IMG/VR virus record: IMGVR_UViG_3300009481_000057
Location: 1 to 32,429 of that record
Reading direction: 5' to 3' (one strand)
Length of the DNA stretch: 32,429 nucleotides
From: a virus
The translations under genes were made by a program, and so were the position numbers. Below are positions 990 to 32,429 of this stretch, piece by piece; within the stretch, counting starts at the first letter, position 1; every line of letters starts with the position of its first letter. The notes beneath the pieces were generated by a model that worked only from the letters and a program-made list of their open reading frames with translations, was not told the DNA's origin and ran no database searches.

Positions 990-1049
990 AACATTTTTTG
1001 TGTAAATTAGTGTCTAGTTGTAATAACTATTTGCTTAGTTATAAAAGAT
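990..1049. promoter_or_regulatory. Divergent intergenic region with inverted repeat
   Basis: This AT-rich gap separates the minus-strand gene from the start of the + strand run. It contains GTGTAAATT at 1000-1008, resembling the element seen before several later genes. It also holds a perfect 7-base inverted repeat, ATAACTA (1023-1029) and TAGTTAT (1036-1042), separated by 6 bases and ending 7 bases before the next ATG. It is a plausible promoter or operator for one or both directions. No clear Shine-Dalgarno sequence precedes the ATG at 1050. Confidence 0.4.
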
Positions 1050-5942: not shown

Positions 5943-5951
5943 GTGTAAGTA
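5943..5951 (+). promoter_or_regulatory. GTGTAAGTA candidate late-promoter element
   Basis: GTGTAA lies just after the terminase stop and about 20 bases before the ATG at 5969. The same hexamer recurs before genes at 15574, 23702 and 30057, and as GTGTATAA at 10940 and 15132. The downstream gene lacks a clear Shine-Dalgarno sequence. Promoter activity is inference. Confidence 0.3.
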
Positions 5952-5968
5952 AAGTCGAATAAGCTTTT

Positions 5969-7099: not shown

Positions 7100-7100
7100 A

Positions 7101-15573: not shown

Positions 15574-16407
15574 ATGGCTCAACTTATTAGTACAGGTCAG
15601 ATAGATCTTGGTGGTTTAAAAGAATTCCTACTAAGACCAGATTCTGAGAGCTTATCCGGTAGTGCGAATAACATTACCGGATTTTATCCTTATTCAGGTA
15701 ACCCCTCTGGTTTTGTAGACGCCGGTCATGTCGAAAGCGTAAGCGGCGACTTATCTGGTTATATAGACTCTGTAAGTGGTGTCATAAATACAAGACTAGT
15801 AGAGTCTGGCACTAATTTAAGTGGATATACTTCCTCAGTAAGTGGTAATCTTAAAAGTGACATAACTTATCTAAGTGGTAAGAATTTAGAATTAAGCGGT
15901 AATTTTTCTACTACAAATTCAAGATCTGTTGATAATGAAGCTGACATAGATAGCCTTAGCGGCAACCTAATTACTTCTGGTCAGAATTTATCTTCATTAA
16001 TAACAGGCGTAAGTGGTCAAGGCGTTAGTGGTTTTGTTACGGGTTTGATTGACTCGACAAGCGGAGTCCTTGATGTCAAGATAACTAATTTAAATACAGA
16101 TTTAAGAGATCATGTAAATCAAGATTATCTTTCTAAAAGAAACGAATCTGAACTTGTCTCTGGATCGGTGTCTTTTGATAAAACTACCCGTTTTAAACAG
16201 AGTGTGGAGCTGGAAAGGGTTATTGATCACGACGAAGTAGCAACTTATCAGAGTGGCTCTAATATGTACACAATGGTTAGTGGAGCAACAGTAGGAGGGG
16301 CTGCTCATCAAGTTATGACAACTTATTTACGTTATCCTCATAGTGGAGATTCAGTTAGGCAAAATTTAATAGTAGGTTCTTTTATGTATAGTGGGGTTAT
16401 ACCATAA
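15574..16407 (+). CDS. Fibre-like structural protein with SG repeats (TGQID paralogue 2)
   Basis: This 277-residue protein shares its N-terminal module with the one at 5969: LISTGQIDLGGLKEFLL, then SGSANNITGFYPYSGNPSGF. A run of SG-spaced units follows (SVSGDLSGYIDSVSGVI, NLSGYTSSVSGNL, YLSGKNLELSGNF) to about residue 165, suggesting an elongated beta or coiled fibre. The C-terminus is different (MVSGATVGGAAHQVMTTYL, ending YSGVIP) and may be a tip or assembly domain. It is likely a tail-fibre or baseplate-associated virion protein. The stop overlaps the next ATG (TAATG), so it is coupled to the LamG protein at 16407. Confidence 0.65.
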   Translation: MAQLISTGQIDLGGLKEFLLRPDSESLSGSANNITGFYPYSGNPSGFVDAGHVESVSGDLSGYIDSVSGVINTRLVESGTNLSGYTSSVSGNLKSDITYLSGKNLELSGNFSTTNSRSVDNEADIDSLSGNLITSGQNLSSLITGVSGQGVSGFVTGLIDSTSGVLDVKITNLNTDLRDHVNQDYLSKRNESELVSGSVSFDKTTRFKQSVELERVIDHDEVATYQSGSNMYTMVSGATVGGAAHQVMTTYLRYPHSGDSVRQNLIVGSFMYSGVIP

Positions 16408-18341
16408 TGTCGGCCAGTAATTCAAATATGCGAAAGAAAGTGGATGGGCTTACTTTATATACAAATGAAATGTATTATAAAAGTTATCCCGGCAAGCCTA
16501 CTACTAACTTAATTCCTACTGCATCTAGCAACTCTGACTTTTCCGCTAGAGTTGGAAGTACTCCTAATGCTTTTTATAGAATATATAAAGATAAAGATCC
16601 AGATAAGCAAGGCATGTATAAGTCTTTGGCTACTGGGACTATGTCAAGTAACGATGTGGTATATAAGTATTCCGGGTGGTCTGATGAATACTATGGTGGC
16701 TCAGGAGTAAGTAATAAGCTTCACGGGTTACATTCTTTTGCTGCTTCAGATTTTCCTAGCTTAAAACTCCGTGTAGGTCAAGAATATATTTTTTCATGCG
16801 AAGTATTTGTCTCTAAGACGCACGGCAGAACAGAGGGGTTTTTCCCGGTAATATCTGCGACATCTACAGATCAAAACGGAAGACATTATGGATATTATGA
16901 TTTTTCTAAAACTGGAACTTGGCAGGTTGTGAGCGTAGTATTTGTACCTACCTTAAAAAGCCTTGTAACGGCTACTGCTGGCACTGCTGGTACAGCAGGC
17001 ACCTCGGGAACTTCTGGTATAGTAAGGACACTTAATCATACGATGTACTTTTGGCCAAACGAAGGCACAACTTCAGACAGCCAGAGGCAATATGGTTATA
17101 TGCTATATAAAAACCCTCAATTAGAAACTGGTAATAAAAGAACACAATTTACAAGGAATAGTGATTCGAGAAAATCAGCAAATAGCTTAAAAGATATAAG
17201 TGGAAATAAAAATTCTTTAAGTGTTATTAATAATTTTGATGATTCATCTTTACCTATATATTCCAAAGGAAAGTTTTCTAATTTAGGCTTGACGTCTACG
17301 GCTTCAGGCTTTGCTTCATCTTTTAATACTGGAAGTACTAATAAAAAGAGTTATGAATTTTGGGTTAACTTAAAGTCGGTTAATGAAGGCGTATCGACTT
17401 TGCTTTATTCTGATGTGGCAAGAGGGTCATCTTTGTTTGTCTCAAAGGAAAGCGTGTCTAGAAAGCAGCACGTATACGTAGAGAAAGGTAAAATATATTG
17501 TACCCTATACAATGAACTTGGAGTGGTTTTTAGTGCATATACAGACAGAAGCGAGATACTAAATTCTAATTTATATCATATAGTTGTCTCTATAGACATG
17601 ACAAAATCTTCTGATAATAAAGTTACTTTTTATGTGAATGGAGAAGCTAAACCTTCTTCTACTATGTCGGAGATACTACCTCCAGCTAATGTTAGATTAA
17701 ATTTATTCCCTTCTAATAGTAGTAAGTTGGCAGTAGGCAATATTTTAGCTTATAGAATTTCTTCTTATAATGCAGATGGAGAGTCTATGGCTTCTGCTTT
17801 AAAAACAATATATGTAAAATCTACGAATCAAGCAGTTAGAATAACTTGGTCAAATGTTAGAGACGCTTTTGCTTTTTCTGTTTATAAGTCAGTTAACTAC
17901 GTTGGCTCAGAAATGTCTAATAAGTCTTTGTTAAGTTTTGTAGGTAATCCTAATTTTGACAATGCTACTTCAACAAATATAACTTATGAAGACGACGGTA
18001 CTGTTTTAACAGGGACAGGTAGGCCTAAACCTAAACCTGACTTTGATAAATATGACGCTCTTAATACTAGTTTTTACGATGGCTCTGATTTGAAATTATC
18101 AATAGGAGACTATCCAAGAAGAGCTCCAACGCTTGTGACTGGGGAAAGTCTAATTGAGAAGACAGGAGCAGAAGGCAAGATATATCAAGTTTCAGTTTAC
18201 AATAGATCTTTGAGCTCTGGTGATGTTTTAAATAACTATATTCAGTCTTTAAGTAGTTTTAATGTTGGTAGTAGTTCAGCAGACTATAGTTTCTCTGCTT
18301 CTTCGGGGACTTCTACAGGTGGTTACGGAGGAGGATATTAA
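16407..18341 (+). CDS. Large LamG-type adhesin with carbohydrate-binding-like and Fn3-like domains
   Basis: This 644-residue protein is a mosaic. Residues 33-245 look like a beta-sandwich carbohydrate-binding domain (TNLIPTASSNSDFS, GQEYIFSCEVFVS, GTWQVVSVVFVP, YKNPQLETG). It is interrupted at 190-204 by a miniature GT(A/S) repeat. Residues 258-445 hold a LamG/concanavalin-like domain (KDISGNKNSL, KSYEFWVNL, YHIVVSIDMT, VTFYVNGEAK). Residues about 446-535 resemble a fibronectin-type-III insert (YRISSYNADGESMAS, VRITWSNVRDAFAFSVYK). The LamG closing strand follows (KIYQVSVYNRSLSSGDV) and the C-terminus is Gly/Tyr-rich (GGYGGGY). It is probably a receptor-binding or glycan-binding fibre component. 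Its last codons carry the ribosome site for the next gene. Confidence 0.7.
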   Translation: MSASNSNMRKKVDGLTLYTNEMYYKSYPGKPTTNLIPTASSNSDFSARVGSTPNAFYRIYKDKDPDKQGMYKSLATGTMSSNDVVYKYSGWSDEYYGGSGVSNKLHGLHSFAASDFPSLKLRVGQEYIFSCEVFVSKTHGRTEGFFPVISATSTDQNGRHYGYYDFSKTGTWQVVSVVFVPTLKSLVTATAGTAGTAGTSGTSGIVRTLNHTMYFWPNEGTTSDSQRQYGYMLYKNPQLETGNKRTQFTRNSDSRKSANSLKDISGNKNSLSVINNFDDSSLPIYSKGKFSNLGLTSTASGFASSFNTGSTNKKSYEFWVNLKSVNEGVSTLLYSDVARGSSLFVSKESVSRKQHVYVEKGKIYCTLYNELGVVFSAYTDRSEILNSNLYHIVVSIDMTKSSDNKVTFYVNGEAKPSSTMSEILPPANVRLNLFPSNSSKLAVGNILAYRISSYNADGESMASALKTIYVKSTNQAVRITWSNVRDAFAFSVYKSVNYVGSEMSNKSLLSFVGNPNFDNATSTNITYEDDGTVLTGTGRPKPKPDFDKYDALNTSFYDGSDLKLSIGDYPRRAPTLVTGESLIEKTGAEGKIYQVSVYNRSLSSGDVLNNYIQSLSSFNVGSSSADYSFSASSGTSTGGYGGGY

Positions 18342-18342
18342 C

Positions 18343-19182
18343 ATGTCAAGTAAAGTAAATTACGGAAAATATAGAGTTAACACGGATGGTTTGATATTTA
18401 GAGTAGACGGATATTCCTCTAGAAGTCACGATCATAATACTGAAAATTGGAAGGATTTGACAGCTAGCGGTTTAGATGTTAAATTAGATAGCAGTGGCCT
18501 GTATAACGAGACGAGTGGCTTCTATGAATTCAGAGCTGGCACATTAAATACTCACGCCGCAATAACCGGAGAAAATTTTACGGGAGTAAGGGACTTGGGT
18601 TTATTCAAAAACAAAAACTCTAGTTTTACTGTAGAGACCTTCTTTCAATTAAAAACAGGATCGCAGCTCACTGCTCCTGATGATGGAGCTGTGATATTTG
18701 GCAATACTGATCATAACAAAAGTGGATACTCTTATGGGTTCGTCGCTCAAACTGGAAATGGAGGGGAGATAAGCGGCTTAAAGTCTGTGCTTTCGTCCAA
18801 CAAAGAGGATAACGCAGCAGGAGCAGGAACTCATACTAATAGCCCTTTTACAGGAATCTCACATACTCTTTCAGATGTATCTTCTCCCTCAGTTCAACCA
18901 CATACATTTTATCATGCGGCTATGACTTATAACTCTTCAGATGGCGTTATGGTTAGTTATTTAGATGGGGTACCAAAGGATACAGGCAGTTTCCCTGCTT
19001 CTCAGGAGCTTCATAAATCAACAGGAGATGGCACCTATCAGCAGTTTTATATCGGGGGAAACCCAAGTTCTGGGATAAATGTAGATATAGGTATGGTTTC
19101 AGCTTACAATAGGGCGTTAGAGAGCGGAGAGGTTGTTTCTAACTGCAAGGCCGTAAAACATAGATACGGCGGTGGCTACTAA
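18343..19182 (+). CDS. LamG-type adhesin
   Basis: The ATG at 18343 is preferred (279 residues) because GGAGGAGG lies 8 bases before it and the previous stop is one base upstream; an upstream in-frame ATG at 18262 would overlap the preceding gene by 80 bases. The protein is essentially one LamG/concanavalin-like domain: NTDGLIFRVDGYSSRS, LTASGLDVKL, SSFTVETFFQL, TFYHAAMTYN, MVSYLDGVPKD and IGMVSAYNRALESGEV. It ends HRYGGGY, echoing the C-terminus of its neighbour. LamG domains bind glycans or proteins, so a host-recognition role on the virion is likely. No catalytic residues are visible. Confidence 0.7.
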   Translation: MSSKVNYGKYRVNTDGLIFRVDGYSSRSHDHNTENWKDLTASGLDVKLDSSGLYNETSGFYEFRAGTLNTHAAITGENFTGVRDLGLFKNKNSSFTVETFFQLKTGSQLTAPDDGAVIFGNTDHNKSGYSYGFVAQTGNGGEISGLKSVLSSNKEDNAAGAGTHTNSPFTGISHTLSDVSSPSVQPHTFYHAAMTYNSSDGVMVSYLDGVPKDTGSFPASQELHKSTGDGTYQQFYIGGNPSSGINVDIGMVSAYNRALESGEVVSNCKAVKHRYGGGY

Positions 19183-19220: not shown

Positions 19221-20255
19221 ATGAATGAAGTTCCTTTCCTAGAAGAGACTGTGCCTCTATTTGACACTCATAAACAAAGAGGTCAGCAGCTTGCCAAAGA
19301 TGTAGTTATTAAGATAAACTCTTTTTCTTTCGGAGATACTTTAGCTGCTACTCCAACCATAAGAAAGCTAGCAGAGTGTTACGCTAAAAAGATAATAGTA
19401 TGCACTTCCAAGCCTTTTCTTTTTGATCATAATCCTAATGTTCTTTTTACTATACATTTAAATGATTTTAACAATGAGCACTACGATAATTATGAAGTAT
19501 TTGATACTTTTAATTCTATAGGAAAAGAAGATAAGTCTGGAATAGAAAAGAAGTACGCAGCTTACGACATAAGAAAAATACACTGTACTGAAATAGGATT
19601 TGACCTAAGGCCAGAAGAGTTGCATTGCGACTATTATCCCGGACCAATTGAATTTAGTAAAGAAGATCAATCTTTTCTAAGTAATAGTAATTATGTAGTT
19701 ATGCATATTGGTCAAAACTGGCCTAGTAGAACTTGGCCTAGAGAAAGTTATGTGAATTTAATTAATGCTCTCAACTCAAGCGGTTTCAAAGTTGCTTTAG
19801 TAGGTTTTGATCAAAAACCTGAGCCGGGACAGTATAACCATGATAAGACTTGTTATAATTTTGAAGATTTAGAATTTGATGGCTTGAGTTTTCTAAACAG
19901 GACCTCATTAGACCAAGACTACTATATAACAAAGAACTCAGAAGCATGTATAACAATGGATACAGGCCAGCTTCACTTAGCGGGATGTACTGATACACAT
20001 ATTATTTATATGGGGGCTTCTGTTCACCCTTTATGGAGAGCGCCTTATAGAAACGGCTCTCAGTCTTATAAGATGACTTTTGTTGGTGGTACATGTAAAT
20101 CATTTTGCGCCTCTGACCCTAAATACTCTGTAGTTGAACATAGCACTATAAATAGTGTCCCTCCACTCCCGTTCTGCCTAGAGGGTAGACCTAACTATGA
20201 TTGCCAACCTACTTGGAAAGATGTTTTTGATGAAACATTAAAAATTTTAAAATGA
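19221..20255 (+). CDS. GT9-family (heptosyltransferase-like) glycosyltransferase with Cys4 finger
   Basis: This 344-residue protein has GT-B features of the ADP-heptose transferase family (GT9). The N-terminal loop NSFSFGDTLAATPTIRKL (33-50) matches the GDxLxxTP motif. The C-terminal domain has VVMHIGQNWPSRTWP and the donor-binding MDTGQLHLAG (246-255). Near the C-terminus, C292, C296, C319 and C328 form a possible metal finger (TCKSFC, PFC, YDC). TibC-type O-heptosyltransferases bind iron with a four-cysteine finger, so this protein may be related in function. It starts 38 bases after the adhesin and overlaps the next gene (ATGA). It probably transfers a heptose-like sugar in the cytoplasm; the acceptor is unknown. 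Confidence 0.82.
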   Translation: MNEVPFLEETVPLFDTHKQRGQQLAKDVVIKINSFSFGDTLAATPTIRKLAECYAKKIIVCTSKPFLFDHNPNVLFTIHLNDFNNEHYDNYEVFDTFNSIGKEDKSGIEKKYAAYDIRKIHCTEIGFDLRPEELHCDYYPGPIEFSKEDQSFLSNSNYVVMHIGQNWPSRTWPRESYVNLINALNSSGFKVALVGFDQKPEPGQYNHDKTCYNFEDLEFDGLSFLNRTSLDQDYYITKNSEACITMDTGQLHLAGCTDTHIIYMGASVHPLWRAPYRNGSQSYKMTFVGGTCKSFCASDPKYSVVEHSTINSVPPLPFCLEGRPNYDCQPTWKDVFDETLKILK

Positions 20256-23200
20256 AGAGAAGAGTATTATTTGTGCCTATGCATCTTTCTACTGGTGGCT
20301 CTCCTCAGTGGTTATTAGAACTAATAAAAGTATCAATATTAGAAAATGAAGTTTTTGTAGCGGAGTTTAATAATTATGGCACGTTTAATATACAAAAAGA
20401 TAAGATAATAAATCTTGTAGGAAAGAAAAGTTATGAGTGTATAGGTCCATGTTTTTCTGATAACTGGGAAGAAGAAAGGAATAGGCTCTGGGAAATAATA
20501 CAGGAATTTAAACCTCATATAATACACTTTAATGAAATACCTGAAAATTTTGAATATAATGGTTTTCCTAAAGAGTTATTAGAAAAAATTTATAGTCCAG
20601 ATAGATCTTATCAAATATTCGAAACTTGCCATGATAATGCATTTGATTTTGTCAATAAGGTCCATCATCCAGATGGATACATATGTGTTTCAGATTATCA
20701 TCCTAGGAAAATTAAAGATATTTTTCCTGAAGCAAATTGCTATATCTGGGATTATACAATACCTAAAAAGAATAGGCCTGATAGAGTTAAAACATTAACT
20801 AGCCTTGGCCTAGATCCTGATAAGACGCACGTACTCAACGTAGGCCTTTTTCATGAAAACAAAAATCAAAAATTCATTTACGACATAGCAAAACAAGTCT
20901 TAGATGAAAATGTTGAATTTCATTTTATAGGTAATGACTGCTATCTTTCTAATTGTGGTATTGAGGATGTAAACTTATCTAATTGCAAGGTGTGGGGCGA
21001 AAGGAGTGATGTTGAGACTTTCTATTCATGTATGGATATATTCTTTTTCCCATCCCTTAGAGAACTAAATCCTTTAAGCGTTAAAGAAGCTTTGTCTTGG
21101 GGTATGCCTGTTTTGATGAATAGGATAGAAGCATGTGACCTATATAAGAAATACGAGAATAATAAAAATGTAACTTTTATAGACGATGTCGATAGCAAAA
21201 AATATATTCTAGATAGAATTAAAAAGCCTGAGAAAAAAGATTTGAGGATAGGTCTGTATACAAGTTTTTACAATAATGCTAGATTCATACCGGGACTATA
21301 CGATGAAATATCCAATCAGACTTATTCTAATTGGAAGTGGTTCGTTACAGATGATTTCAGTAAAGATGATACAGTTAAAAGCGCGCTTCTTGATTTAGCT
21401 TCTAGAGATAGTAGAGTAGTTTATTGCGAGCAAAAGAGTAAGAAAGAAATGTTTTGGAATGCGCAGCGTTTCATAACGGATGATTGCGATTATCTAGCTT
21501 TAGTTGATGCTGACGATGGTATATATCCTAAAGCTTTAGAATTTCTAGCTCATATGCTTAAAAAGAATCCTAGCGCTTTCAGTTTTTCTACTTGGTTTCA
21601 TCAGTACGATGGAGACTTAAGCTTGAGAAAGAATATAACTAATCCGGACTATTCTTTTCCTAAAGGTAATTGGCACGATTATCTTGATAAACACGAAAAG
21701 GACCTTAAGTCGGATGCTTTTGATTGGTCTAATCTAAGGTCTTTTAGATTTTTCGGAGCCCTAAGGGGTCATAAAAATAAAGGCGACGTCAATATAGAAG
21801 TCAATAGTCCAGTCGAAACAGTTTCAGAAGACTCTATAAGAATGGCTCAACTGCAAAAATATGGAGACTATATACTGTTCCCTAGGCCTATGTATAAAGT
21901 TCTTAACCATGAGGAGTCTCACGCTACCCCCTCTAATGTCAACGATGAACAGGAAAAGGTGGGTAAGCAAAATTTATATAACTCAATAAAATCTACAAAA
22001 GGATATAGACATAATAAAATATTACCAACTTACTATAATTTCTTTGATGAGTTATGCGCTTTAGCTAAGTCCGATATACAATTTGAAATAGATAGAAAGA
22101 AGCTATGTTTAATTACTAATAGAGATGTATCAAAGTCTGAAGAAAGTAAGATTAGAGATTTGTATTTTGATCATGACTTTTATATTAATAAATTCGAAGA
22201 AGATATAGACTATTTCTTTTTCGATTGTAATAGTTTTTCTAAATTAGAATTATGTGAGGTTTTCAGTAAACTTAACAATATCAAAGGGCGTTTTCAAATA
22301 AACGCTTACTGCTTACTTGAGAATGAGGAAGAAGAAGGCGATAAGATAAAATACATAAACGAAATATCTTTAATGCCTTTTTCTTGGAATTCTTTTTGTA
22401 GGAATATTATTTTTAATTTTAATATAAATAAAATAAAAGACAAAGTATTTATAGAAATATGTAGCTCGTCGCTTGGAGATAACGTGGCTTGGGTTCCTTA
22501 TATTGAAGAATACAGAAAAGAGAATGACTGTGATGTTTATGCATTTACTTATAAAAATGATCTTTATAGAGATAGCTATCCTGAAGTAAATTTTGTAGAC
22601 AGGTTGGAAGACGTGGAAGTCATGAGCTTTGATAAAAGGCTTAAAGTAGGCTGGTTCGATGATACTCCAGATTGGGTTAAGAATCAAGAAGAGCAAAGAG
22701 CTGGGTCTTACTATTTAAATTTAGAACATAAAGAGCTTAGGCCTAAAATAGATATATTAAATAAAGAGAGAGTTATAGAAGATAAATATGTTTGTATCTC
22801 TGTGCAATCAACGGCTCAATGTAAATATTGGAACAACCCAACAGGATGGGATCAAGTTATTGAATACTTAAATTCTAAAGGTTATAAAGTTGTTTGTATT
22901 GATAGGCATGAAAGCTATGGAGGTAGAGAAAGGTATAATTATATACCATCAGGAGCTATTAATAAAACAGGAGACTTCGATTTGCAAGAAAGAATAACAG
23001 ACTTGTATAACTGTGAATTTTTCATAGGTTTAGGTTCAGGGCTTTCTTGGTTAGCGTGGGGTGTTGGGAAGGATGTTGTTTTGATAAGCGGATTCAGTAA
23101 CGAGGCCACTGAGTTTTATACACCTTATAGGGTAATTAATAAGAATACTTGTAATTCCTGTTGGAATAGAGAAAAGTTTGATCCTAATAATTGGGATTGG

Positions 23201-23293
23201 TGTCCAGACCATGAAGGCACAGAAAGAGAGTTTGAATGTTCAAAGCAAATAACTTTTGAAATGGTCAAAGAACAAATAGATAAATTAATATGA
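20252..23293 (+). CDS. Three-domain glycosyltransferase: GT4 + GT2 + BAHT/TibC-like O-heptosyltransferase
   Basis: This 1013-residue protein has three modules. Residues 1-325 form a GT4-like GT-B domain (VPMHLSTGGSPQWLLELI, GLFHENKN, FFPSLRELNPLSVKEALSWG with E271 and E279 as the EX7E pair). Residues 330-560 form a GT2-like GT-A domain (IGLYTSFYNNARFIPGL, WFVTDDFSKDDT, LALVDADDG with the DxD at 419-421). The final 300 residues match the autotransporter O-heptosyltransferase family (EICSSSLGDNVAWVPYIEEY, VQSTAQCKYWNNPTGWDQV, FIGLGSGLSWLAWG, VVLISGFSNEATEF). They end in a Cys4 finger at C967, C970, C984 and C996 that corresponds to the iron finger of TibC. Such enzymes add heptose to Ser in repeat passenger domains. 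Here the Ser/Thr-rich fibres downstream are candidate acceptors (inference). Confidence 0.85.
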   Translation: MKRRVLFVPMHLSTGGSPQWLLELIKVSILENEVFVAEFNNYGTFNIQKDKIINLVGKKSYECIGPCFSDNWEEERNRLWEIIQEFKPHIIHFNEIPENFEYNGFPKELLEKIYSPDRSYQIFETCHDNAFDFVNKVHHPDGYICVSDYHPRKIKDIFPEANCYIWDYTIPKKNRPDRVKTLTSLGLDPDKTHVLNVGLFHENKNQKFIYDIAKQVLDENVEFHFIGNDCYLSNCGIEDVNLSNCKVWGERSDVETFYSCMDIFFFPSLRELNPLSVKEALSWGMPVLMNRIEACDLYKKYENNKNVTFIDDVDSKKYILDRIKKPEKKDLRIGLYTSFYNNARFIPGLYDEISNQTYSNWKWFVTDDFSKDDTVKSALLDLASRDSRVVYCEQKSKKEMFWNAQRFITDDCDYLALVDADDGIYPKALEFLAHMLKKNPSAFSFSTWFHQYDGDLSLRKNITNPDYSFPKGNWHDYLDKHEKDLKSDAFDWSNLRSFRFFGALRGHKNKGDVNIEVNSPVETVSEDSIRMAQLQKYGDYILFPRPMYKVLNHEESHATPSNVNDEQEKVGKQNLYNSIKSTKGYRHNKILPTYYNFFDELCALAKSDIQFEIDRKKLCLITNRDVSKSEESKIRDLYFDHDFYINKFEEDIDYFFFDCNSFSKLELCEVFSKLNNIKGRFQINAYCLLENEEEEGDKIKYINEISLMPFSWNSFCRNIIFNFNINKIKDKVFIEICSSSLGDNVAWVPYIEEYRKENDCDVYAFTYKNDLYRDSYPEVNFVDRLEDVEVMSFDKRLKVGWFDDTPDWVKNQEEQRAGSYYLNLEHKELRPKIDILNKERVIEDKYVCISVQSTAQCKYWNNPTGWDQVIEYLNSKGYKVVCIDRHESYGGRERYNYIPSGAINKTGDFDLQERITDLYNCEFFIGLGSGLSWLAWGVGKDVVLISGFSNEATEFYTPYRVINKNTCNSCWNREKFDPNNWDWCPDHEGTEREFECSKQITFEMVKEQIDKLI

Positions 23294-23679
23294 AAGTAGA
23301 AGTATCAGACGGAGAAGTATTAGATAAGCTATCTATATTAGAAATAAAATTAGACAATATAGAAGATGAGACTAAGTTAGCTAATATAAGAAAAGAACAC
23401 AATATTTTAAAACAGACCATTGGTGAGCCGCCATGGCATGAGCATGTTTTTAGAAGATATGGCTTTTATGATCAATTAAAAGAGATAAATGAAACCCTAT
23501 GGGAGATAGAAGACGATATAAGATTAAAAGAAAAGAAGCAAGAATTTGATGCTAGTTTTATTAAATTAGCTCGACAAGTCTATCAAATCAACGATAAGAG
23601 GGCTGAAATAAAGAAAGAAATTAACATACACACTGGATCTAATTTATTAGAAGAAAAATCTTACGAAGATTATGGTTAA
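23290..23679 (+). CDS. DUF6165-family protein
   Basis: This 129-residue helical, charged protein starts VEVSDGEVLDKLSILEIKLD, the typical opening of DUF6165 (VS-x-GE-x-x-DKL-x-ILEIK). That small family of unknown function is often found beside glycosyltransferase genes. Helices continue through LANIRKEHNIL and DQLKEINETLWEIEDDIR. The ATG overlaps the stop of the triple glycosyltransferase (ATGA), so it is translationally coupled and likely part of the same sugar pathway, perhaps as an accessory or scaffold for the transferases. No catalytic motif or membrane segment is visible. Confidence 0.7.
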   Translation: MKVEVSDGEVLDKLSILEIKLDNIEDETKLANIRKEHNILKQTIGEPPWHEHVFRRYGFYDQLKEINETLWEIEDDIRLKEKKQEFDASFIKLARQVYQINDKRAEIKKEINIHTGSNLLEEKSYEDYG

Positions 23680-23683
23680 TAAT

Positions 23684-23695
23684 GTGTAATTTACA
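23684..23695 (+). promoter_or_regulatory. GTGTAATTTACA candidate element
   Basis: GTGTAA (23684-23689) begins a short dyad, TGTAA-T-TTACA (23685-23695), located between the DUF6165 stop and the repeat-fibre ATG at 23702, which lacks a Shine-Dalgarno sequence. It resembles the elements at 5943, 15558 and 30040. Confidence 0.3.
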
Positions 23696-23701
23696 TAGTA
23701 T

Positions 23702-26593
23702 ATGGCGGTTAAAAGGTACGTTGGAGACAAGATAGTCGGTCTAGACAATGAGAAGGACGGAGTCCTTCATACTGTGTCTGACGGAGCAAATTATTATTCT
23801 ACTGATTCCCCATATAATGTCTACATAAAAGAAAACTCAGCTTGGCAGCAAATAAGTGCTGGAGGAGGGGGAGGTTCAACTTCAGGTTCATCTGGTAGCT
23901 CTGGAACTTCTGGTACATCTGGCAGTTCAGGTACATCAGGTACGTCAGGCAGTTCTGGAACTTCGGGTACGTCTGGTAGCTCTGGAACTTCGGGTACATC
24001 GGGTAGTTCAGGTACATCAGGCACGTCAGGCAGTTCTGGAACTTCGGGTACGTCTGGTAGTTCAGGTACTTCAGGTACGTCAGGCAGTTCTGGTACTTCA
24101 GGCACATCGGGTAGTTCTGGAAATTCGGGTACATCGGGTAGTACAGGTACGTCAGGTACGTCAGGCAGCTCTGGAACTTCAGGTACGTCAGGCAGCTCTG
24201 GAACTTCGGGTACATCGGGTAGTTCAGGTACTTCAGGTACGTCAGGCAGTTCTGGAACTTCGGGTACGTCTGGCAGTTCAGGTACTTCAGGTACGTCAGG
24301 CAGCTCTGGTGCTGCTGGAACTTCAGGCACCTCTGGATCTAGTGGCTTAACAGGAGATAAATACTCAACAACTTCTTCTCAATCAAAGAGTATACCTACT
24401 TCTACCGGTGGGGCTTATGACATAGAATTTACAGACATAGATTCAGGTCTTAGTTGGACAGCGGGGCAGGATATACTTGTTTCTCATAATAATAGCAATA
24501 AATTTACAGGGACAGTAAATTCCTATAGTGGCACGACTATAAGAATTAAATGGATAGCTAATACAGGTACAGGCTCTTACAGTAGTTGGACTTTGACACA
24601 GAACGGAGCTCCGGGAGCAGCAGGAACCTCAGGTAATTCAGGCACATCAGGTACATCTGGTAGCTCTGGTGACGATGGCACTTCAGGTACGTCTGGTAGT
24701 TCAGGTACATCAGGTACGTCAGGCAGCTCTGGAACTTCGGGTACGTCTGGTAGTTCAGGTACATCGGGTACGTCAGGTAGCTCTGGTACTTCAGGTACTT
24801 CTGGTAGTTCAGGTACATCAGGTACGTCAGGCAGCTCTGGAACTTCGGGTACGTCTGGTAGTTCAGGTACATCGGGTACGTCAGGCAGCTCTGGAACTTC
24901 GGGTACGTCTGGTAGTTCAGGTACATCGGGTACGTCAGGTAGCTCTGGTACTTCAGGTACTTCTGGTAGTTCAGGTACTTCAGGTACATCAGGTAGTTCA
25001 GGTCAAGATGGCACTTCAGGTACGTCTGGTAATCAAGGTGTTCAAGGTAACCAAGGTAACCAAGGCAACCAAGGAAACGCAGGTTCATCAGGCTCATCTG
25101 GTAGTTCTGGTAGCTCTGGAACTTCAGGTACATCTGGTAGTTCAGGTACTTCAGGTACGTCTGGTAGTTCAGGTACATCAGGTACGTCAGGCAGCTCTGG
25201 AACTTCGGGTACGTCTGGCAGTTCAGGTACATCGGGTACGTCAGGTAGCTCTGGTACTTCAGGTACGTCTGGTAGTTCAGGTACTTCAGGTACATCTGGT
25301 AGTTCAGGTCAAGATGGCACTTCAGGTACGTCTGGTAATCAAGGTGTTCAAGGAAACCAAGGTAACCAAGGAAACCAAGGAAACTCAGGAACTTCAGGTA
25401 CCTCTGGTAATTCTGGTGACGATGGCACTTCAGGTACATCGGGTACGTCAGGTAGCTCTGGTACTTCAGGTACGTCTGGTAGTTCAGGTACTTCAGGTAC
25501 ATCTGGTAGTTCAGGTCAAGATGGCACTTCAGGTACGTCAGGTAGTTCAGGTCAGTCTGGAACTTCAGGTACGTCAGGTAGTTCAGGTCAGTCTGGAACT
25601 TCAGGTACGTCAGGTAGTTCAGGTCAATCTGGAACTTCAGGTACATCTGGTAGTTCTGGAACTTCAGGTACATCTGGTAGTTCAGGTAGCTCCGGTAGTT
25701 CAGGTAGCTCTGGTAGTTCAGGTCAATCTGGAACTTCAGGTACGTCAGGTAACTCTGGTGCGGATGGTACTAGTGGCTCTTCTGGTAATCAAGGCAACCA
25801 AGGTAATCAAGGTAACCAAGGTAATCAAGGTAACCAAGGAAACTCAGGCACTTCAGGTACATCAGGTAGTTCAGGTCAGTCTGGAACTTCAGGTACGTCA
25901 GGTAGTTCAGGTCAGTCTGGAACTTCAGGTACGTCAGGTAGTTCAGGTCAGTCTGGAACTTCAGGTACGTCAGGTAGTTCAGGTCAGTCTGGAACTTCAG
26001 GTAGCTCTGGTAGTTCAGGTCAATCTGGAACTTCAGGTACATCTGGTAGTTCAGGTCAGTCTGGAACTTCAGGTAGCTCTGGTAGTTCAGGTCAATCTGG
26101 AACTTCAGGTACTTCTGGTAATCAAGGCATCCAAGGTAATCAAGGCAACCAAGGTAATCAAGGCAACCAAGGAAACACAGGTGCCTCTGGTACTTCAGGT
26201 ACGTCAGGTAACTCTGGATCTTCAGGTAGCTCTGGTAGTTCTGGTAATGATGGAGGCGGCACAGGGGGTTCTGACATGCGCTATAAGAATAGTGTGAGTC
26301 AAATATCTAGCACAGTAGACAAAATTAAAAATTTAACCGGTATATATTTTCAATGGACAAATGATTCTCCTTTCTATGAAGATTATAGTGGTATGGATAG
26401 AATAGGCTTATCTGCTCAAAATTTAAAAGAAGAATTTCCAGCTTTAGTAACTAGTGGCGATGCAGTTGGCTATGATGGGCAAAATATACCAGATTTTCAT
26501 ACTGTGTGGTATGATAGAATGGCTGGCGTGTTTGTCGAGGCTATTAAAGAAATTGATCAAAGATTAAGAGTAGTAGAATCGGGGGTATTATAA
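23702..26593 (+). CDS. Giant Gly-X-Y repeat tail fibre with S74 intramolecular chaperone
   Basis: This 963-residue protein has an N-terminal adaptor of about 58 residues ([19 protein letters not shown]). Two long collagen-like arrays follow, dominated by the 9-residue unit GTSGTSGSS with GNQ blocks. An island domain at residues 216-304 ([38 protein letters not shown]) separates the arrays and resembles a module common in marine phage fibres. Residues 857-963 are a peptidase S74 endosialidase-type chaperone, [25 protein letters not shown] and [13 protein letters not shown]857 and K862 fit the self-cleavage dyad. The chaperone should trimerise the fibre and then be released. The arrays lack proline, so their fold may differ from classical collagen. 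Ser and Thr make up most X and Y positions. It is translated without a clear ribosome site. Confidence 0.88.
23885..24346 (+). repeat. 27-base tandem repeat array A (Gly-Thr/Ser-Ser triplets)
   Basis: The array consists of near-continuous copies of a 27-base unit encoding GTSGTSGSS. Synonymous third positions vary widely while the amino-acid period is kept, so selection acts on the peptide. The X-position Ser of GSS is almost always AGT or AGC, and the Y-position Ser almost always TCN. Confidence 0.93.
24614..26269 (+). repeat. Tandem repeat array B with GNQ and GQS blocks
   Basis: This is a longer array with the same 27-base core. It is punctuated by GNQG runs (near 25030-25078, 25336-25386, 25786-25842 and 26119-26176) and later by [12 protein letters not shown] units. 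Identical longer blocks recur within it, which suggests segmental duplication by unequal recombination. It ends just before the S74 domain. Confidence 0.92.
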
Positions 26594-27948
26594 TGGGGCA
26601 AAGTTACGGACCAAAATTAGTTACTGATAGCTTAGCTTTATGTCTTGACTTAGCTGACGCAGACCCAACCTACGCGCATTTTAATAACTCAGATATAGTT
26701 ACAGAAGTGGCTTTTACTAATGCAAACAGCAGTGACGAGGAAAGAATAGATAAAGGAACTGACCCGTGGGGAAGACAATCTTTTTTGGATAGGTCAGTAA
26801 ATAATGACGTAGGTAGTAACTATGACGGTGGAGATACTAGTAACGTATATGCCGTAGCTAATACAAGCAAATATAGATTTACTTATTTTTTCAGAGTAGA
26901 TAAGAAAGGCTCAAACGGTACATTGTACTTTGGTTTATATGGATATAATTCTAGCACTCAAAATATAGGTGTTTTTAGCCCTTCTGGTACTGGAAGTGCA
27001 AATACAAATCCGTATTTTTCGTACCCCGGACATGATCATGCCAATTTTACAGAAGGGCAGTGGTATATGTTTGTCGCATATGTGCATCCCGAAGGATCTA
27101 CAGATGTATCAGACGACACTGCTGGGTATTACCACATGGGCACTGGAGAAAAAGTTACAGGCCTTAGCGTTGGAAATATTAATTATAACGGTGTTTGGCA
27201 AAATGCCACCACACAAACTCGGTTTAGATATTATCTTTATTATTCTACGGACCCTACTGTTGAGATGAGCTGGTATCAAGCTCGCATAGATTTGATTGAC
27301 GGTAATGAGCCTTCTATTACTGACATGCTAAACTATCCTCCTGAGACTGTGCGAGATCTTACGGGCAATGCTAGAAACTTTAAAACAAATGGAGTGTCTT
27401 TTGATTCTACTTATAAGTCAATAAACCTAAATGGAAGCACTGACTTTTTAGAGCTTGGTACAGACCATGACTATAAAACAACTGGAGGTTTTACCATATC
27501 TACTTGGTTTAAACATGATGTGGCTGAAACTGGACTTGGGAACTTTACAGGCTCGGCAAGTATTACTTACAATAGTTGGTATTGGTCTGTTCATGGGCAA
27601 AAATTAGCTTTATGGGATCTGTCTCCCGGAAACGTTTGGAAATACGGAAACACAACAATAGCCGCAGATACATGGTACCACGCAACTTTAGTTAGTGACG
27701 CTAATAATACTCATTACTATTGTTATTTAAACGGTGAAGATGATATGAGTAGCGCTTGGAGTTCTTATAATGGATCGTGGCAATCTAGTAAAGCTGGCTT
27801 AAGAATTAGGTATATAGGAAGAGGTGACTCGAGTAATGGTAGGTATATAGATGGAAATATAGCTACTACTCATGTATGGACCAAAGCATTAACAGCGGCA
27901 GAAGTTAAATCTAACTTTAACGCTCATAGAAAAAGATTTGGAGTATAA
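26593..27948 (+). CDS. Two-domain LamG-type adhesin
   Basis: This 451-residue protein starts GPKLVTDSLALCLDLADADP, the N-terminal cap typical of phage LamG adhesins. It has a first beta-sandwich domain (residues 40-240: YRFTYFFRVDKKG, GTLYFGLYGYN, EGQWYMFVAYVHPEG) and then a LamG domain from about 255 (RDLTGNARNFKTNG, SINLNGSTDFLEL, FTISTWFKHD, WYHATLVSDA, TTHVWTKALTAAEV). It closes NFNAHRKRFGV, a C-terminal cap shared with the next genes. The start overlaps the fibre stop (TAATG), so it is coupled to the fibre. It probably binds surface glycans at the virion tip or decorates the head. Confidence 0.72.
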   Translation: MGQSYGPKLVTDSLALCLDLADADPTYAHFNNSDIVTEVAFTNANSSDEERIDKGTDPWGRQSFLDRSVNNDVGSNYDGGDTSNVYAVANTSKYRFTYFFRVDKKGSNGTLYFGLYGYNSSTQNIGVFSPSGTGSANTNPYFSYPGHDHANFTEGQWYMFVAYVHPEGSTDVSDDTAGYYHMGTGEKVTGLSVGNINYNGVWQNATTQTRFRYYLYYSTDPTVEMSWYQARIDLIDGNEPSITDMLNYPPETVRDLTGNARNFKTNGVSFDSTYKSINLNGSTDFLELGTDHDYKTTGGFTISTWFKHDVAETGLGNFTGSASITYNSWYWSVHGQKLALWDLSPGNVWKYGNTTIAADTWYHATLVSDANNTHYYCYLNGEDDMSSAWSSYNGSWQSSKAGLRIRYIGRGDSSNGRYIDGNIATTHVWTKALTAAEVKSNFNAHRKRFGV

Positions 27949-27951
27949 ATT

Positions 27952-29235
27952 ATGGGAGCATCAGGGGGACCAAATATAATTAGTGACGGGCTCGTCTTCG
28001 CCTTGGACGCCGCAGACCCTCAAACGTCTAAGGCTGGGTGCATGGGTTTCACCTCTGCTGAGCAGCTAATGAAAAATTTGGCTACCAATAGTGGTAAAGG
28101 AGATACTATAACCTCAACTTCTGATGTAAGGTTAGGTAACCTAAATTTCTACACTATATATTCTATAACTTACCCTGAAGGTGATTATAATCCAGCAGGC
28201 GCCTCAGGAACTCGAGACGGTATCACCCCGGGCTTTAATGACGTTACTTCAAGTGAGTTATTAGATTTTAGTAGAGATTTAAACTACGCAGTTTGGAATA
28301 ATAAAACGAATGGTTGGGTTGCTGACTCTTATTTTAATGGTGAGAGAATAGCTGGGCATTGTTATGATACTTACGATGGAGAACCATCACAACATGCGAA
28401 GTTTCAAAGTGACTACGAAGCTATAGTTAATGCTTTCCCAGATGCAACTCATATAGTTTGCGGCTCTCATGCTGCTGAAAATAATGATAGTAGTGCGGAT
28501 ACTTTAGCTATATTGAAAGATTTAGGTGGTCCTTCTTCTTGGCCTACTGACAGAGCAGAATATATATTGATAGGCAAACCCGGGTTAGGCGCTGGCAATG
28601 CTTACGTTTGGCAATACCAAAATGATAGTAGTTCAAGAGCGCATGCTAACGTTGGCTTACCAATATTAGGCGGTAAAAACAGCGGGGAAAATTATCTAGA
28701 TTTTGATGGAACTGATGATTATTTAAGTATAGCTCAATTTGATTTTACAAGTACCCACAGTCTAGAATGGTGGTTCAATGCAGATAATCTAACAGAAAAG
28801 TATACAGGTGGTTACGCAGGCCATATGTTGGCTTGGGGACACTCTCCATCAGAGAGAATATATCTCAAAACTAATGGAGGTTTAGGTATTTATATGCATG
28901 ATAGCAGCTCAGGTACTGCCTTTAATACTAGTAATTTTAGCGTTACAGCTGGAAACTGGACTCATATAGTAGTCACTTTTAATTGGGATGCTGAAAGTGT
29001 TAAATGTTATCAAAATGGCGTTTTAAAAGACACGATTGATACTTCATCTTTAGGTAGCTGGAATTATACTGGAGCATCAAATTCATATGACTATATAGAT
29101 TTTGGTAGAAATGTAAGCAATAATAACATTTTCTATGATGGTAAATTAGCGTGCATTAGAATTTATGATAAAATATTAACAGATACTCAAATTAAAGCAA
29201 ACTTTAACGCACATAGAAGGAGGTTCGGAGTATAA
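27952..29235 (+). CDS. LamG adhesin with embedded ILEI/FAM3-like domain
   Basis: This 427-residue protein starts GPNIISDGLVFALDAADP. Residues about 95-237 form a separate domain (TPGFNDVTSSELLDFSRDLN, GERIAGHCYDTYDG, DATHIVCGSHAAENNDSSAD, YILIGKPGLGAGNAY). It resembles the ILEI/FAM3 (interleukin-like) fold seen in some phage and bacterial surface proteins. A LamG domain occupies 245-415 (NYLDFDGTDDYLSI, HSLEWWFNADN, NWTHIVVTFNWD, KLACIRIYDKILTD) and the protein closes NFNAHRRRFGV. ILEI-like domains are proposed to bind carbohydrate. The ILEI assignment is by pattern only. It starts 3 bases after the previous stop, with GGAG in the preceding gene's last codons. Confidence 0.68.
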   Translation: MGASGGPNIISDGLVFALDAADPQTSKAGCMGFTSAEQLMKNLATNSGKGDTITSTSDVRLGNLNFYTIYSITYPEGDYNPAGASGTRDGITPGFNDVTSSELLDFSRDLNYAVWNNKTNGWVADSYFNGERIAGHCYDTYDGEPSQHAKFQSDYEAIVNAFPDATHIVCGSHAAENNDSSADTLAILKDLGGPSSWPTDRAEYILIGKPGLGAGNAYVWQYQNDSSSRAHANVGLPILGGKNSGENYLDFDGTDDYLSIAQFDFTSTHSLEWWFNADNLTEKYTGGYAGHMLAWGHSPSERIYLKTNGGLGIYMHDSSSGTAFNTSNFSVTAGNWTHIVVTFNWDAESVKCYQNGVLKDTIDTSSLGSWNYTGASNSYDYIDFGRNVSNNNIFYDGKLACIRIYDKILTDTQIKANFNAHRRRFGV

Positions 29236-30011
29236 TGGCTTTTCATAATAATCCAAGGATAGTTACAGATGACTTGCTTTTATGCTTAGATGCAAGTGAC
29301 TCCAGTTCATATTCGGGTTCTGGAACAGTCTGGAACAATCTTGCTGACCCTAATGGCATTTCTACTTATACTTTGAGCGGATGGACGTTGGGCACAAAAG
29401 ATGGCGTCAAGGGGCTGAGTCATAGCGAAAGCGTAACAACTGACAGCGCATATATTCGCTCAACTAATGTAAATGATTATTCGGCTAAAGTAGGATTTCA
29501 GTATTATATGTCTAATGGGCCTTTTACTATTTCATTTTGGGATTATCAAACGGCGTACGCAACAGATGGATCTCAAACATGCGGTTCAGCGTTTTCTACT
29601 GCCACCGACGGAACAAATGCCGACATCTATCAGATACAAATAAATCACGGATATAATTATCCGAGTTCCAACGGTTATTCTTTTAGGCTTCCAAATGGAG
29701 CTATTCCAGCAGACGCATTAGGTAATCCAGAACCTTTAAATGTTTGGGTGAACCACGTTTTAACTGTCAGTGATAATCATGCAGATGGCGTAGCTCATTA
29801 TTATAGAAACGGGGTTTTGCACACCACGAATACTACTTTCACCGCATGGCCTTTCAGTACAACTGACGGATATCATTATTTAATGAGAGACGTTGATGAT
29901 GAAAATAATTTCGCTGGACATCTAGCTCAGGTATTGATTTATAAAAGAGCTTTACCGGCAGCTGAAGTTAAGCAAAACTATAACGCTCATAAAAGTAGAT
30001 TTGGTTTTTAA
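29235..30011 (+). CDS. Single-domain LamG-type adhesin
   Basis: This 258-residue protein opens NPRIVTDDLLLCLDASDSSS with the SYSGSGTVWNNLAD element typical of marine phage LamG proteins. The domain continues through GPFTISFWDYQT, NVWVNHVLTVSDN, VAHYYRNGVLHT and GHLAQVLIYKRALPAAEV, and ends NYNAHKSRFGF. The start overlaps the previous stop, with GGAGGTTCGGAG just upstream providing the ribosome site inside the preceding coding sequence. It is probably a glycan-binding virion protein. It has the same N- and C-terminal caps as its two upstream neighbours but a different middle, consistent with domain swapping. Confidence 0.72.
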   Translation: MAFHNNPRIVTDDLLLCLDASDSSSYSGSGTVWNNLADPNGISTYTLSGWTLGTKDGVKGLSHSESVTTDSAYIRSTNVNDYSAKVGFQYYMSNGPFTISFWDYQTAYATDGSQTCGSAFSTATDGTNADIYQIQINHGYNYPSSNGYSFRLPNGAIPADALGNPEPLNVWVNHVLTVSDNHADGVAHYYRNGVLHTTNTTFTAWPFSTTDGYHYLMRDVDDENNFAGHLAQVLIYKRALPAAEVKQNYNAHKSRFGF

Positions 30012-30424: not shown

Positions 30425-32429
30425 ATGGCTCAAGATGAAGTAACAGTTAATCTGCAGGGAAATGACGTAACTGCTACCGCGGTGAACGTTAGTGCGTCTA
30501 CTATTCCAACCTCTAGTGTTAATTTTGTTGGAGCTCAAGGACCTTCTGGCACTTCAGGAACCTCTGGTTCATCTGGAACTTCTGGTTCTTCGGGTTCATC
30601 TGGCTCTAGTGGTACTTCAGGTTCATCTGGAACTTCTGGTTCTTCAGGTTCATCTGGATCTAGTGGCACTTCAGGTTCGTCTGGTACTTCAGGTTCGTCT
30701 GGTACTTCAGGTTCATCTGGTTCTTCTGGCAGCTCTGGTTCTTCTGGATCATCTGGGTCTAGTGGCACTTCAGGTTCTTCTGGCACTTCAGGCAGCTCTG
30801 GAACATCAGGTAGCTCTGGTAACTCTGGTAGTTCAGGTACATCAGGCAGTTCTGGCACTTCAGGTTCATCAGGTACTTCTGGCACTTCAGGGTCCAGTGG
30901 TACATCTGGCTCTAGTGGTAGTTCAGGGTCTAGTGGTACATCGGGTAGAGACGGTAACTTTGGCGGAGCCTCATTTAAATATGATTTTGAATTAGATAAT
31001 ATAGCTAATAGCGATCCCGGATCTGGAAATATTAAATTTAACTCTTCTATATCTAGTGGTACTAGTAATGCGACAGCTATTTATTTAGATGATAGTGATA
31101 AAGATGGTTCTGATATACAATCCTTTTTAAGAACAGTTGATGATTCAAACTCTACAATAAAAGGACATGTAAAGATAACAAAAAGATTTGATACAAGTAA
31201 ATTTATTTTATTTACTATTAGTTCTGCAGTAGAGAAGACAGGTTATCATTCTATAAATGTTTCTGCTGTTTCGCAAAGTTCTTCTAGTCCTTTTGCTACA
31301 AGTGATGAACTAGTTGTAACTTTTGCCAGAACAGGTAATACTGGCGATGCAGGTACATCTGGAAATTCAGGGAGCTCCGGTTCTTCTGGAAGTTCAGGTT
31401 CTAGTGGTAACGCTGGCAGTTCAGGTACTTCAGGTAGTTCTGGTACTTCAGGTAGTTCTGGTAGCTCTGGTAGCTCTGGGTCTAGTGGGAGCTCAGGTTC
31501 TTCAGGTACATCTGGTAGCTCTGGAACATCTGGAAGCTCTGGATCTTCTGGGTCTTCAGGTAGCTCAGGGTCTTCCGGTACATCTGGTTCTTCCGGTACA
31601 TCAGGATCTAGTGGAAACTCTTTTTCTGTTAGTAATGATGGAAACAATAAAGTTATAACATCTGATGGAGATGGTACTTTCACAGCAGAATCAAATTTAA
31701 CATTTGACGGTACTACTGTAAACATTAAAAACGACTTAACTGTTTCTGGAAATTTAAGTGTTTCTGGCAATTTTACCCTTGGAGATGCAACTACAGACAC
31801 AATAACTACAAAGGGAGACCTACATGTAGAAGATGACGCTTTCTTTGGTGACGACGTCACAATAACTGGAGACCTTACGACTAAAAGCATAACCCCTACT
31901 ACTAGTGGGGAATATGACTTAGGCTCTTCTACTTTGTACTGGGGTAATATATACGCTAAGACTGGAAATTTTGATGCAAGCACTATAATCCTTGGAGATT
32001 CAGGAGCTGAAATATCTGTAAATTCAGATGGAAACATACAAACTAAAAGCAATGCAGGAGTAGTCGTAGAAGCTGGAGGTTTAAATACTAATTCCACTGC
32101 TCCCGGTAGCTTTATCGTAGAAAATGATATTCATGTAAGCGGAGGCGCTATAATTGGTGGAGAAGCTACTATAAGTGGTAATGCTGTAATTAGTGGATCA
32201 GAAATATATTTTAGCTCTATCCCTACGCAGTCTTCTATGACTGGAGTTCTCGCTGTTACTGACGATGGTAGACTTTACAAAAGTCATCATGCTGCATCTA
32301 GTGGTACTTCTGGATCTTCTGGAAGTTCAGGAAGCTCAGGAAGTTCTGGCAATACAGGTGCTACAGGAACTTCTGGCTCTAGTGGTACTTCTGGCTCTAG
32401 TGGTACATCTGGTAGTTCCGGCACCTCAG
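30425..32429 (+). CDS. Gly-X-Y repeat tail fibre 2, 3' truncated by window edge
   Basis: An ATG at 30425 opens a frame that stays open to the last base (668 codons seen); the gene continues beyond the window. After an N-terminal segment (MAQDEVTVNLQGNDVTATAV) come three Gly-Ser/Thr-Ser arrays separated by two globular modules. The first module (about 30962-31333) contains FKYDFELDNIANSDPGSG, IYLDDSDKDGSDIQSFL and LVVTFARTGN, a common phage fibre unit. The second (31616-32299) has NLTFDGTTVNIKNDLTVSGN, GEYDLGSSTLYWGNIYA and ISGNAVISGSEIYFSS, typical of beta-helical fibre shafts. The C-terminus is unseen; an S74-type chaperone is plausible by analogy with the fibre at 23702. The gene has no ribosome site of its own, so coupling to the upstream gene is likely. 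Confidence 0.82.
   Translation, partial: MAQDEVTVNLQGNDVTATAVNVSASTIPTSSVNFVGAQGPSGTSGTSGSSGTSGSSGSSGSSGTSGSSGTSGSSGSSGSSGTSGSSGTSGSSGTSGSSGSSGSSGSSGSSGSSGTSGSSGTSGSSGTSGSSGNSGSSGTSGSSGTSGSSGTSGTSGSSGTSGSSGSSGSSGTSGRDGNFGGASFKYDFELDNIANSDPGSGNIKFNSSISSGTSNATAIYLDDSDKDGSDIQSFLRTVDDSNSTIKGHVKITKRFDTSKFILFTISSAVEKTGYHSINVSAVSQSSSSPFATSDELVVTFARTGNTGDAGTSGNSGSSGSSGSSGSSGNAGSSGTSGSSGTSGSSGSSGSSGSSGSSGSSGTSGSSGTSGSSGSSGSSGSSGSSGTSGSSGTSGSSGNSFSVSNDGNNKVITSDGDGTFTAESNLTFDGTTVNIKNDLTVSGNLSVSGNFTLGDATTDTITTKGDLHVEDDAFFGDDVTITGDLTTKSITPTTSGEYDLGSSTLYWGNIYAKTGNFDASTIILGDSGAEISVNSDGNIQTKSNAGVVVEAGGLNTNSTAPGSFIVENDIHVSGGAIIGGEATISGNAVISGSEIYFSSIPTQSSMTGVLAVTDDGRLYKSHHAASSGTSGSSGSSGSSGSSGNTGATGTSGSSGTSGSSGTSGSSGTS
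30539..30955 (+). repeat. Gly-X-Y repeat array, first of fibre 2
   Basis: Triplets GTS and GSS alternate with a looser order than in the fibre at 23702. Ser codons are mixed here (TCN-TCN, TCT-AGT and AGC-TCT pairs), unlike the strict AGY-TCN pattern of the earlier arrays, suggesting separate amplification histories. Confidence 0.88.
31334..31615 (+). repeat. Gly-X-Y repeat array, second of fibre 2
   Basis: This is a Gly-Ser-Ser-dominated array between the two globular fibre modules, beginning [13 protein letters not shown] and ending GSSGN. Confidence 0.87.
32303..32429 (+). repeat. Gly-X-Y repeat array, third of fibre 2, cut by window edge
   Basis: [15 protein letters not shown] then GNTGATGTSG; the array is still running at the last base, so its true length is unknown. 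Confidence 0.85.

Follow-up and report, generated by a model that had tools for sequence, protein, structure and literature searches.

A candidate phage-encoded O-glycosylation cassette with a TibC-like enzyme beside a serine-rich collagen-like fibre gene

The window analyzed here is the whole 32,429-base stretch of IMG/VR virus record IMGVR_UViG_3300009481_000057, which derives from an uncultured phage. It carries a three-gene cassette (19221-23679) that encodes a GT9-family glycosyltransferase, a fusion protein with GT4, GT2 and TibC-like domains, and a DUF6165 protein, placed between a ConA/LamG-like gene and the gene of a Ser-rich, collagen-like fibre. Both gene junctions inside the cassette are four-base ATGA-type stop/start overlaps. 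An original prediction, made from the letters alone, had described this coupled operon and a fibre gene starting 23 bases after it; the open reading frames (ORFs) and domains lie where it had placed them and the fibre does start shortly after the DUF6165 gene, with a measured gap of 22 bases. The features of the locus are as follows.

18343..19182, + strand: Laminin_G_3/ConA-like protein (Pfam), the fixed upstream boundary of the cassette, which directly precedes the fibre in the cassette-less loci L096 and L097; the start was set by homology to 277-residue relatives, the longest ORF starting at 18262
19221..20255, + strand: GT9-family glycosyltransferase, 344 residues (PF01075, 38 bits, cut-off 22; PDB 1psw, E=0.0015)
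20252..23293, + strand: whole fusion protein, 1013 residues, with GT4, GT2 and GT9/TibC domains (Pfam)
20252..21241, + strand: GT4-type domain of the fusion, residues 1-330 (PF13692/PF00534)
21245..22111, + strand: GT2-type domain of the fusion, residues about 332-620 (PF00535, 46 bits)
22403..23290, + strand: TibC-like O-glycosyltransferase domain, residues 718-1013 (TIGR04414, TibC match and site conservation)
23150..23239, + strand: iron-finger-like Cys4, C967, C970, C984 and C996 (TibC alignment)
23290..23679, + strand: DUF6165 protein (PF19662, 56 bits, cut-off 27)
23680..23701, + strand: fibre leader, the right edge of the inserted cassette, conserved in cassette-less relatives (DNA alignment)
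23702..26593, + strand: collagen-like fibre, 963 residues, the putative substrate (Pfam; triplet counts)
30425..32428, + strand: another Ser-rich collagen-like protein, its ORF still open where the contig ends (Collagen, 134 bits)

The C-terminal part of the fusion is clearly related to TibC, a bacterial autotransporter heptosyltransferase (BAHT). Residues 718-1011 align with TibC (PDB 4rap) at E=4e-64, and this part alone scored 315 bits against the NCBIfam profile TIGR04414 (cut-off 200; E=1e-92), values that exclude a chance match. The domain had been foreseen, with a somewhat wider extent (710-1013). TibC was also the best PDB fold match of the fusion model in Foldseek (E=7e-21); since the full-length model is poor (predicted local distance difference test [pLDDT], 61; predicted template modelling score, 0.37), our conclusions rest on the sequence, with Foldseek as a supporting result. 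In TibC, Asp110 is the catalytic base, Thr226, Lys230, Arg286 and Trp305 contact the donor, and Cys339/342/358/370 are the iron ligands (PMC4358343). The fusion keeps the base (D743) and all four donor contacts (T854, K858, R914 and W933, respectively), and the four cysteines named in the original prediction as an iron finger are all present and align with the iron-binding cysteines of TibC as a putative iron finger. Among 88 viral representatives of the TibC-like domain, the catalytic Asp is present in every one, and the Lys (80), the Trp (85) and the Cys4 (84) are nearly invariant.

The fibre holds 298 Ser and 140 Thr in 963 residues, as expected from the hundreds of Ser/Thr in Gly-X-Y repeats noted originally. 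Its Gly-X-Y runs span residues 62-220 and 302-853 (Collagen PF01391, 328 bits) and are followed by an S74 chaperone domain at 857-916 (Peptidase_S74 PF13884, 27 bits). Of the 237 repeat triplets, 114 are GTS and 66 are GSS; the Y position is Ser in 199 and Thr in 3, and there is one Pro in all, so that any triple helix in the virion would be nearly proline-free and of uncertain stability. An artefact of low-complexity DNA was considered and rejected, the enzyme domains being ordinary sequence and the repeat lying in frame within an intact ORF. The second collagen-like ORF, with 196 Ser and 78 Thr in 668 residues and a longest Gly-X-Y run of 49 triplets, is a possible second substrate of the cassette.

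The association of cassette and repeats can be followed at a single locus. When IMG/VR was scanned with the N-terminus of the fibre alone, which is free of repeats, 16 loci were recovered. In 14 of them, TibC-like and DUF6165 genes immediately precede a fibre with Gly-X-Y repeats; the other two (L096 and L097) have neither cassette nor repeats, the LamG gene running directly into the fibre. No TibC-like gene was found anywhere in these two records. The L097 fibre is complete (1981 residues) and has no Gly-X-Y run, and that of L096 is cut at 186 residues, with none in that part. After dereplication the contrast is about 10 versus 2 loci, which is small but exact (Fisher's test; P = 0.015). Because the leader before the fibre start is conserved with L096 and L097, the cassette has been cleanly inserted or lost between the LamG and fibre genes. 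The pattern recurs in a second type of fibre, whose N-terminus is unrelated: all 8 close relatives combine repeats with a TibC-like gene upstream, and 2 distant ones lack the repeats and have no TibC-like gene in their 14.2-kb loci. Repeat-bearing fibres in relatives devoid of the operon would have spoken against the original prediction; the fibres of these relatives showed no Gly-X-Y repeats.

The same link was found across the collection, whose viral records are contig fragments. TibC-like enzymes are encoded in 27 of the 80 IMG/VR records with DNA coding for a ten-residue string of the Ser-rich repeat (every best hit with E <= 1e-76), in 0/50 control records of comparable length picked by a P-loop pattern, and in 0/50 records with GPQGPQG (proline/glutamine) collagen repeats (Fisher's test; P = 2.9e-7 for each comparison and 1.7e-11 pooled). 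The linkage is with Ser-rich repeats and not with collagen-like repeats in general. In the reverse direction, 18 of the 31 long TibC-positive records have at least 4 Gly-[Ser/Thr]-[Ser/Thr]-type triplets in their DNA, against 0/31 controls. A Ser-collagen gene lies at most 3 ORFs downstream of 27 of the 81 TibC-like loci (16 clusters, counted from an 85% grouping), against 56 of 698 other ORFs. The co-occurrence suggested originally was recovered in three independent tests (same locus, 27/80 versus 0/50, and 18/31 versus 0/31). The TibC-like domain is present in only 4 of 50,697 annotated phage records (Microcystis phage Mel-JY01, LR756501, LR756503 and LR756504); the check for collagen genes covered Mel-JY01, LR756501 and LR756504, and Ser-rich collagen repeats were found near the domain in Mel-JY01, an isolated phage, and in the 735-kb megaphage LR756501. 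In Mel-JY01 (PP395634.1) the TibC-like fusion lies at 4747-8430, and the Ser-rich collagen ORF, of 1016 residues, at 2-3052. As a separate observation, one record (L110 / G003, IMGVR 3300046010_015054) combines Ser-rich and Pro/Gln collagen repeats with a TibC-like gene.

Glycosyltransferases are abundant near the fibre genes of phages, especially of aquatic and jumbo phages, and are usually guessed to modify host lipopolysaccharide (LPS) or DNA. The cassette could likewise modify the LPS or O-antigen of the host, for superinfection exclusion or receptor masking, its position beside the fibre resulting from shared host-receptor evolution. This is how the glycosyltransferases of a pelagimyophage host-recognition cluster have been read (PMC7029224), and the GT9, GT4 and GT2 families do include LPS enzymes. 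Such a role predicts neither a TibC-type, peptide-modifying domain in place of an ordinary LPS transferase, nor a link to Ser-rich repeats that does not extend to Pro/Gln collagen repeats, nor the joint gain or loss of cassette and repeats at one locus, and we consider it quite unlikely. The cassette is, with good probability, a phage-encoded protein O-glycosylation module for the Ser-rich collagen-like fibre, in which the other transferases would extend the glycan. The analysis shows the gene order, the homology, the retention of active-site and iron-finger residues, and an association with Ser-rich repeats on three levels; which reaction takes place, with which sugar, in what order the glycan grows and to what effect we infer. 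The coming and going together of TibC-like genes and Ser-rich fibre genes suggests that this phage and many unrelated ones attach sugars to their own fibres during assembly.

TibC modifies Ser and not Thr, and BAHT genes often directly precede the gene of their substrate (PMC4358343). In the window, the TibC-like domain would transfer a sugar, most likely D-glycero-D-manno-heptose from host ADP-heptose, to the Y-position serines of the Gly-X-Ser repeats; this would take place while the late genes are expressed, before or during fibre trimerization. Extension of the glycan would most likely fall to the GT9 enzyme and to the GT4 and GT2 domains of the fusion. The likeliest consequence is a stiff, hydrated and protease-resistant fibre surface, and the glycan might also stabilize the nearly proline-free triple helix.

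The partners of the TibC-like domain vary among relatives. The GT9 product is a distant relative of RfaF/WaaC and of TibC, and a comparison of 8 homologs revealed four invariant cysteines near its C-terminus (C292, C296, C319 and C328; C-x3-C-x22-C-x8-C), a motif reminiscent of, but different from, the TibC iron finger. Wherever the contig of a cassette-bearing relative of the window extends far enough, DUF6165 is located between enzyme and fibre. It is predicted to be a helical bundle (AlphaFold2 pLDDT, 88); a fold search against the PDB gave no match at E <= 0.001, and a literature search found no paper naming it. Other cassettes contain an extra TibC-like gene, an FkbM methyltransferase domain or a carbamoyltransferase. 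A carbamoyltransferase-like ORF is found in L008, L084 and L013, and L095 encodes a single GT9-TibC-TibC-FkbM fusion. The FkbM-bearing cassettes are located as follows.

L008:7868-11701: FkbM-bearing cassette of a relative
L084:1852-5592: FkbM-bearing cassette of a relative
L095:1933-5592: FkbM-bearing cassette of a relative

In these relatives, the FkbM methyltransferase and the carbamoyltransferase may decorate the glycan further, and the variability of the cassette is as expected for a variable glycan.

Several observations weigh against fibre glycosylation by a TibC-type enzyme. The N-terminal beta-barrel of TibC (1-97), whose deletion abolishes activity, has no aligned counterpart in the fusion, alignments starting at TibC 93 and TIGR04414 position 71; the roughly 100 residues ahead of the domain are predicted, with low confidence, as mixed alpha/beta, and relatives such as L018 and L027 begin within 4 residues of it. 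The hydrophobic beta-hairpin thumb tip of the TibC dodecamer (F265, V266) was not seen either, TibC GQGFVWN aligning with GGRERYN. No autotransporter partner was found beside the fusion, the adjoining partner being the collagen-like S74 fibre. With barrel, thumb tip and autotransporter partner missing, the protein is a TibC-like enzyme and not a strict BAHT. As for co-occurrence, 53 of the 80 repeat-coding contigs have no TibC-like gene and 13 of the 31 long TibC-positive contigs have no Ser/Thr repeats (all of them fragments), so neither gene strictly requires the other; megaphage LR756504 has a TibC-like gene and no collagen ORF within 12 kb. Only two loci without the cassette entered the same-locus test, and one of these is truncated by the end of its contig; the collection-wide controls were comparable in length, without matching for habitat or phage lineage. 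The missing repeats and these controls would fit a domain that modifies some other virion or host protein, its linkage with Ser-rich fibres being an accident of shared lineages of large aquatic phages. This we regard as very unlikely, since TibC-like enzymes pair with three unrelated types of fibre N-terminus, in many cases directly adjacent, and the same-locus comparison lies within one lineage.

The nature of the sugar is a further point of doubt. The Arg that contacts adenine is kept in the window's clade and in 38 of the 88 viral representatives and is lost in the other 50, which suggests that some viral TibC-like enzymes may use another nucleotide sugar. The fibre of the window could then be O-glycosylated with a non-heptose sugar, from another ADP- or NDP-sugar. 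The separation of the phage clade from the bacterial enzymes would agree with this, as would the lack of any heptose-synthesis gene found in the window: an HldE-type profile had no match there and gave weak matches, below the curated cut-off, in 8 of 37 tested records, and as this profile also matches genomes such as that of Bacillus subtilis, it is uninformative on whether phages make ADP-heptose. Against another sugar, the window's clade retains all four residues of the ADP-heptose site (Arg, Lys, Thr and Trp). We find a different sugar unlikely here; heptose, for which the whole site is kept, is the likeliest sugar in this clade and would probably be the one on the fibre. Taken together, the original proposal that the phage glycosylates its own repeat fibres is partly supported: a TibC-type enzyme acting on a Ser-rich fibre agrees with the sequence match, the catalytic and donor residues, and the three co-occurrence tests.

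The viral enzymes form groups of their own. A tree of 148 representatives placed 58 of the 60 bacterial sequences, together with only one viral sequence, in a clade with full support, and 87 of the 88 viral representatives lay outside it; the bacterial set consisted of the best-scoring 80 of at least 516 sequences, so the tree may lack further bacterial lineages. Of the two bacterial sequences outside the clade, one (L495) looks viral, its contig being 4.4 kb long and carrying a collagen gene. The idea that the viral enzymes were recently acquired from bacterial BAHTs was considered and is unsupported by this placement of the viral representatives. Nearly all bacterial homologs carry roughly 80 to 200 additional residues at the N-terminus. 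Of 62 examined, 35 lie within 1.5 kb of a long Ser/Thr/Gly-rich gene, which in most cases reads as a strand-loop-strand type, and none has DUF6165.

The remainder of the window is that of a phage, with a large terminase gene at 4089-5942 and structural genes downstream of it; the terminase, at 25% identity to isolated phages, is too distant for naming a host. No end repeats were found in the 32,429 bases. Five ConA/LamG-like proteins surround the fibre (16407-18341, 18262-19182, 26593-27948, 27952-29235 and 29235-30011), an expanded group of likely carbohydrate-binding virion proteins. A tubulin/FtsZ-family GTPase (9006-10166, + strand; PF00091, 43 bits, cut-off 33) lies between the terminase and the structural genes. 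Its best PDB match is the plasmid tubulin RepX/TubZ (4ei7, E=2e-15), and among annotated phages a distant relative was found only in Bacillus phage G. An ERCC4-type nuclease (3133-4089, + strand) immediately precedes the terminase, and a marginal sigma-70 region 2 match (1354-2052, + strand) lies ahead of it.

These results give one class of glycosyltransferases a specific and testable substrate, the Ser-rich collagen-like fibres. If the reading is true, O-glycosylated fibres would be common in aquatic phages, with a bearing on host attachment, fibre stability and protease resistance; the TibC-type family would serve a substrate of a very different protein fold, and there would be a bacterial route to glycosylated collagen-like materials. 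A more ambitious version, which we hold to be conceivable but doubtful, is that a dedicated, virus-specific TibC-like family glycosylates the Y-position Ser of nearly proline-free collagen repeats, that the O-glycan replaces the stabilizing role of hydroxyproline, and that a modular cassette (extra TibC copies, FkbM and carbamoyltransferase) diversifies the glycan from phage to phage.

Among known systems, glycosyltransferases mixed with fibre genes are also found in the host-recognition cluster of marine pelagimyophages, where the authors read host LPS modification and, in the passages on that cluster, propose neither a TibC-type enzyme nor a fibre substrate (PMC7029224); that reading leaves unexplained both the association with Ser-rich repeats in particular and the joint gain or loss described here. 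Mycobacteriophages also modify their own virion proteins with phage glycosyltransferases (Freeman et al. 2023, cited in PMC12619734), but there the glycans decorate capsid and tail tube subunits at their C-termini, and other enzymes, substrates and hosts are involved (PMC12619734). The TibC/AAH BAHTs (TIGR04414; 4rap, 4rb4) share with the window the catalytic domain, the Asp, the donor residues and the Fe-Cys4 finger, as well as an enzyme gene ahead of the gene of a Ser-rich repetitive surface protein. Their substrate is a beta-helix autotransporter, whereas the candidate in the window is a collagen-like fibre, and the window enzyme differs in having no aligned beta-barrel, a charged thumb tip (ER versus FV in TibC), a fusion to GT4 and GT2 domains, and a place in virus-only clades apart from the bacterial one. 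In mimivirus, a eukaryotic giant virus, the sugars of the collagens are hydroxylysine-linked and do not result from TibC-type Ser O-glycosylation, and BclA of Bacillus spores is a cellular protein with Thr/Pro-rich repeats and unrelated enzymes. Like the system proposed here, mimivirus glycosylates its own collagen-like proteins with virus-encoded enzymes, and BclA is a prokaryotic Gly-X-Y protein whose glycans are thought to aid triple-helix hydration (PMC8968730). Glycosylated virion or collagen-like proteins are therefore already known from other viruses and bacteria, and what is new is the enzyme family, the class of substrate and their spread.

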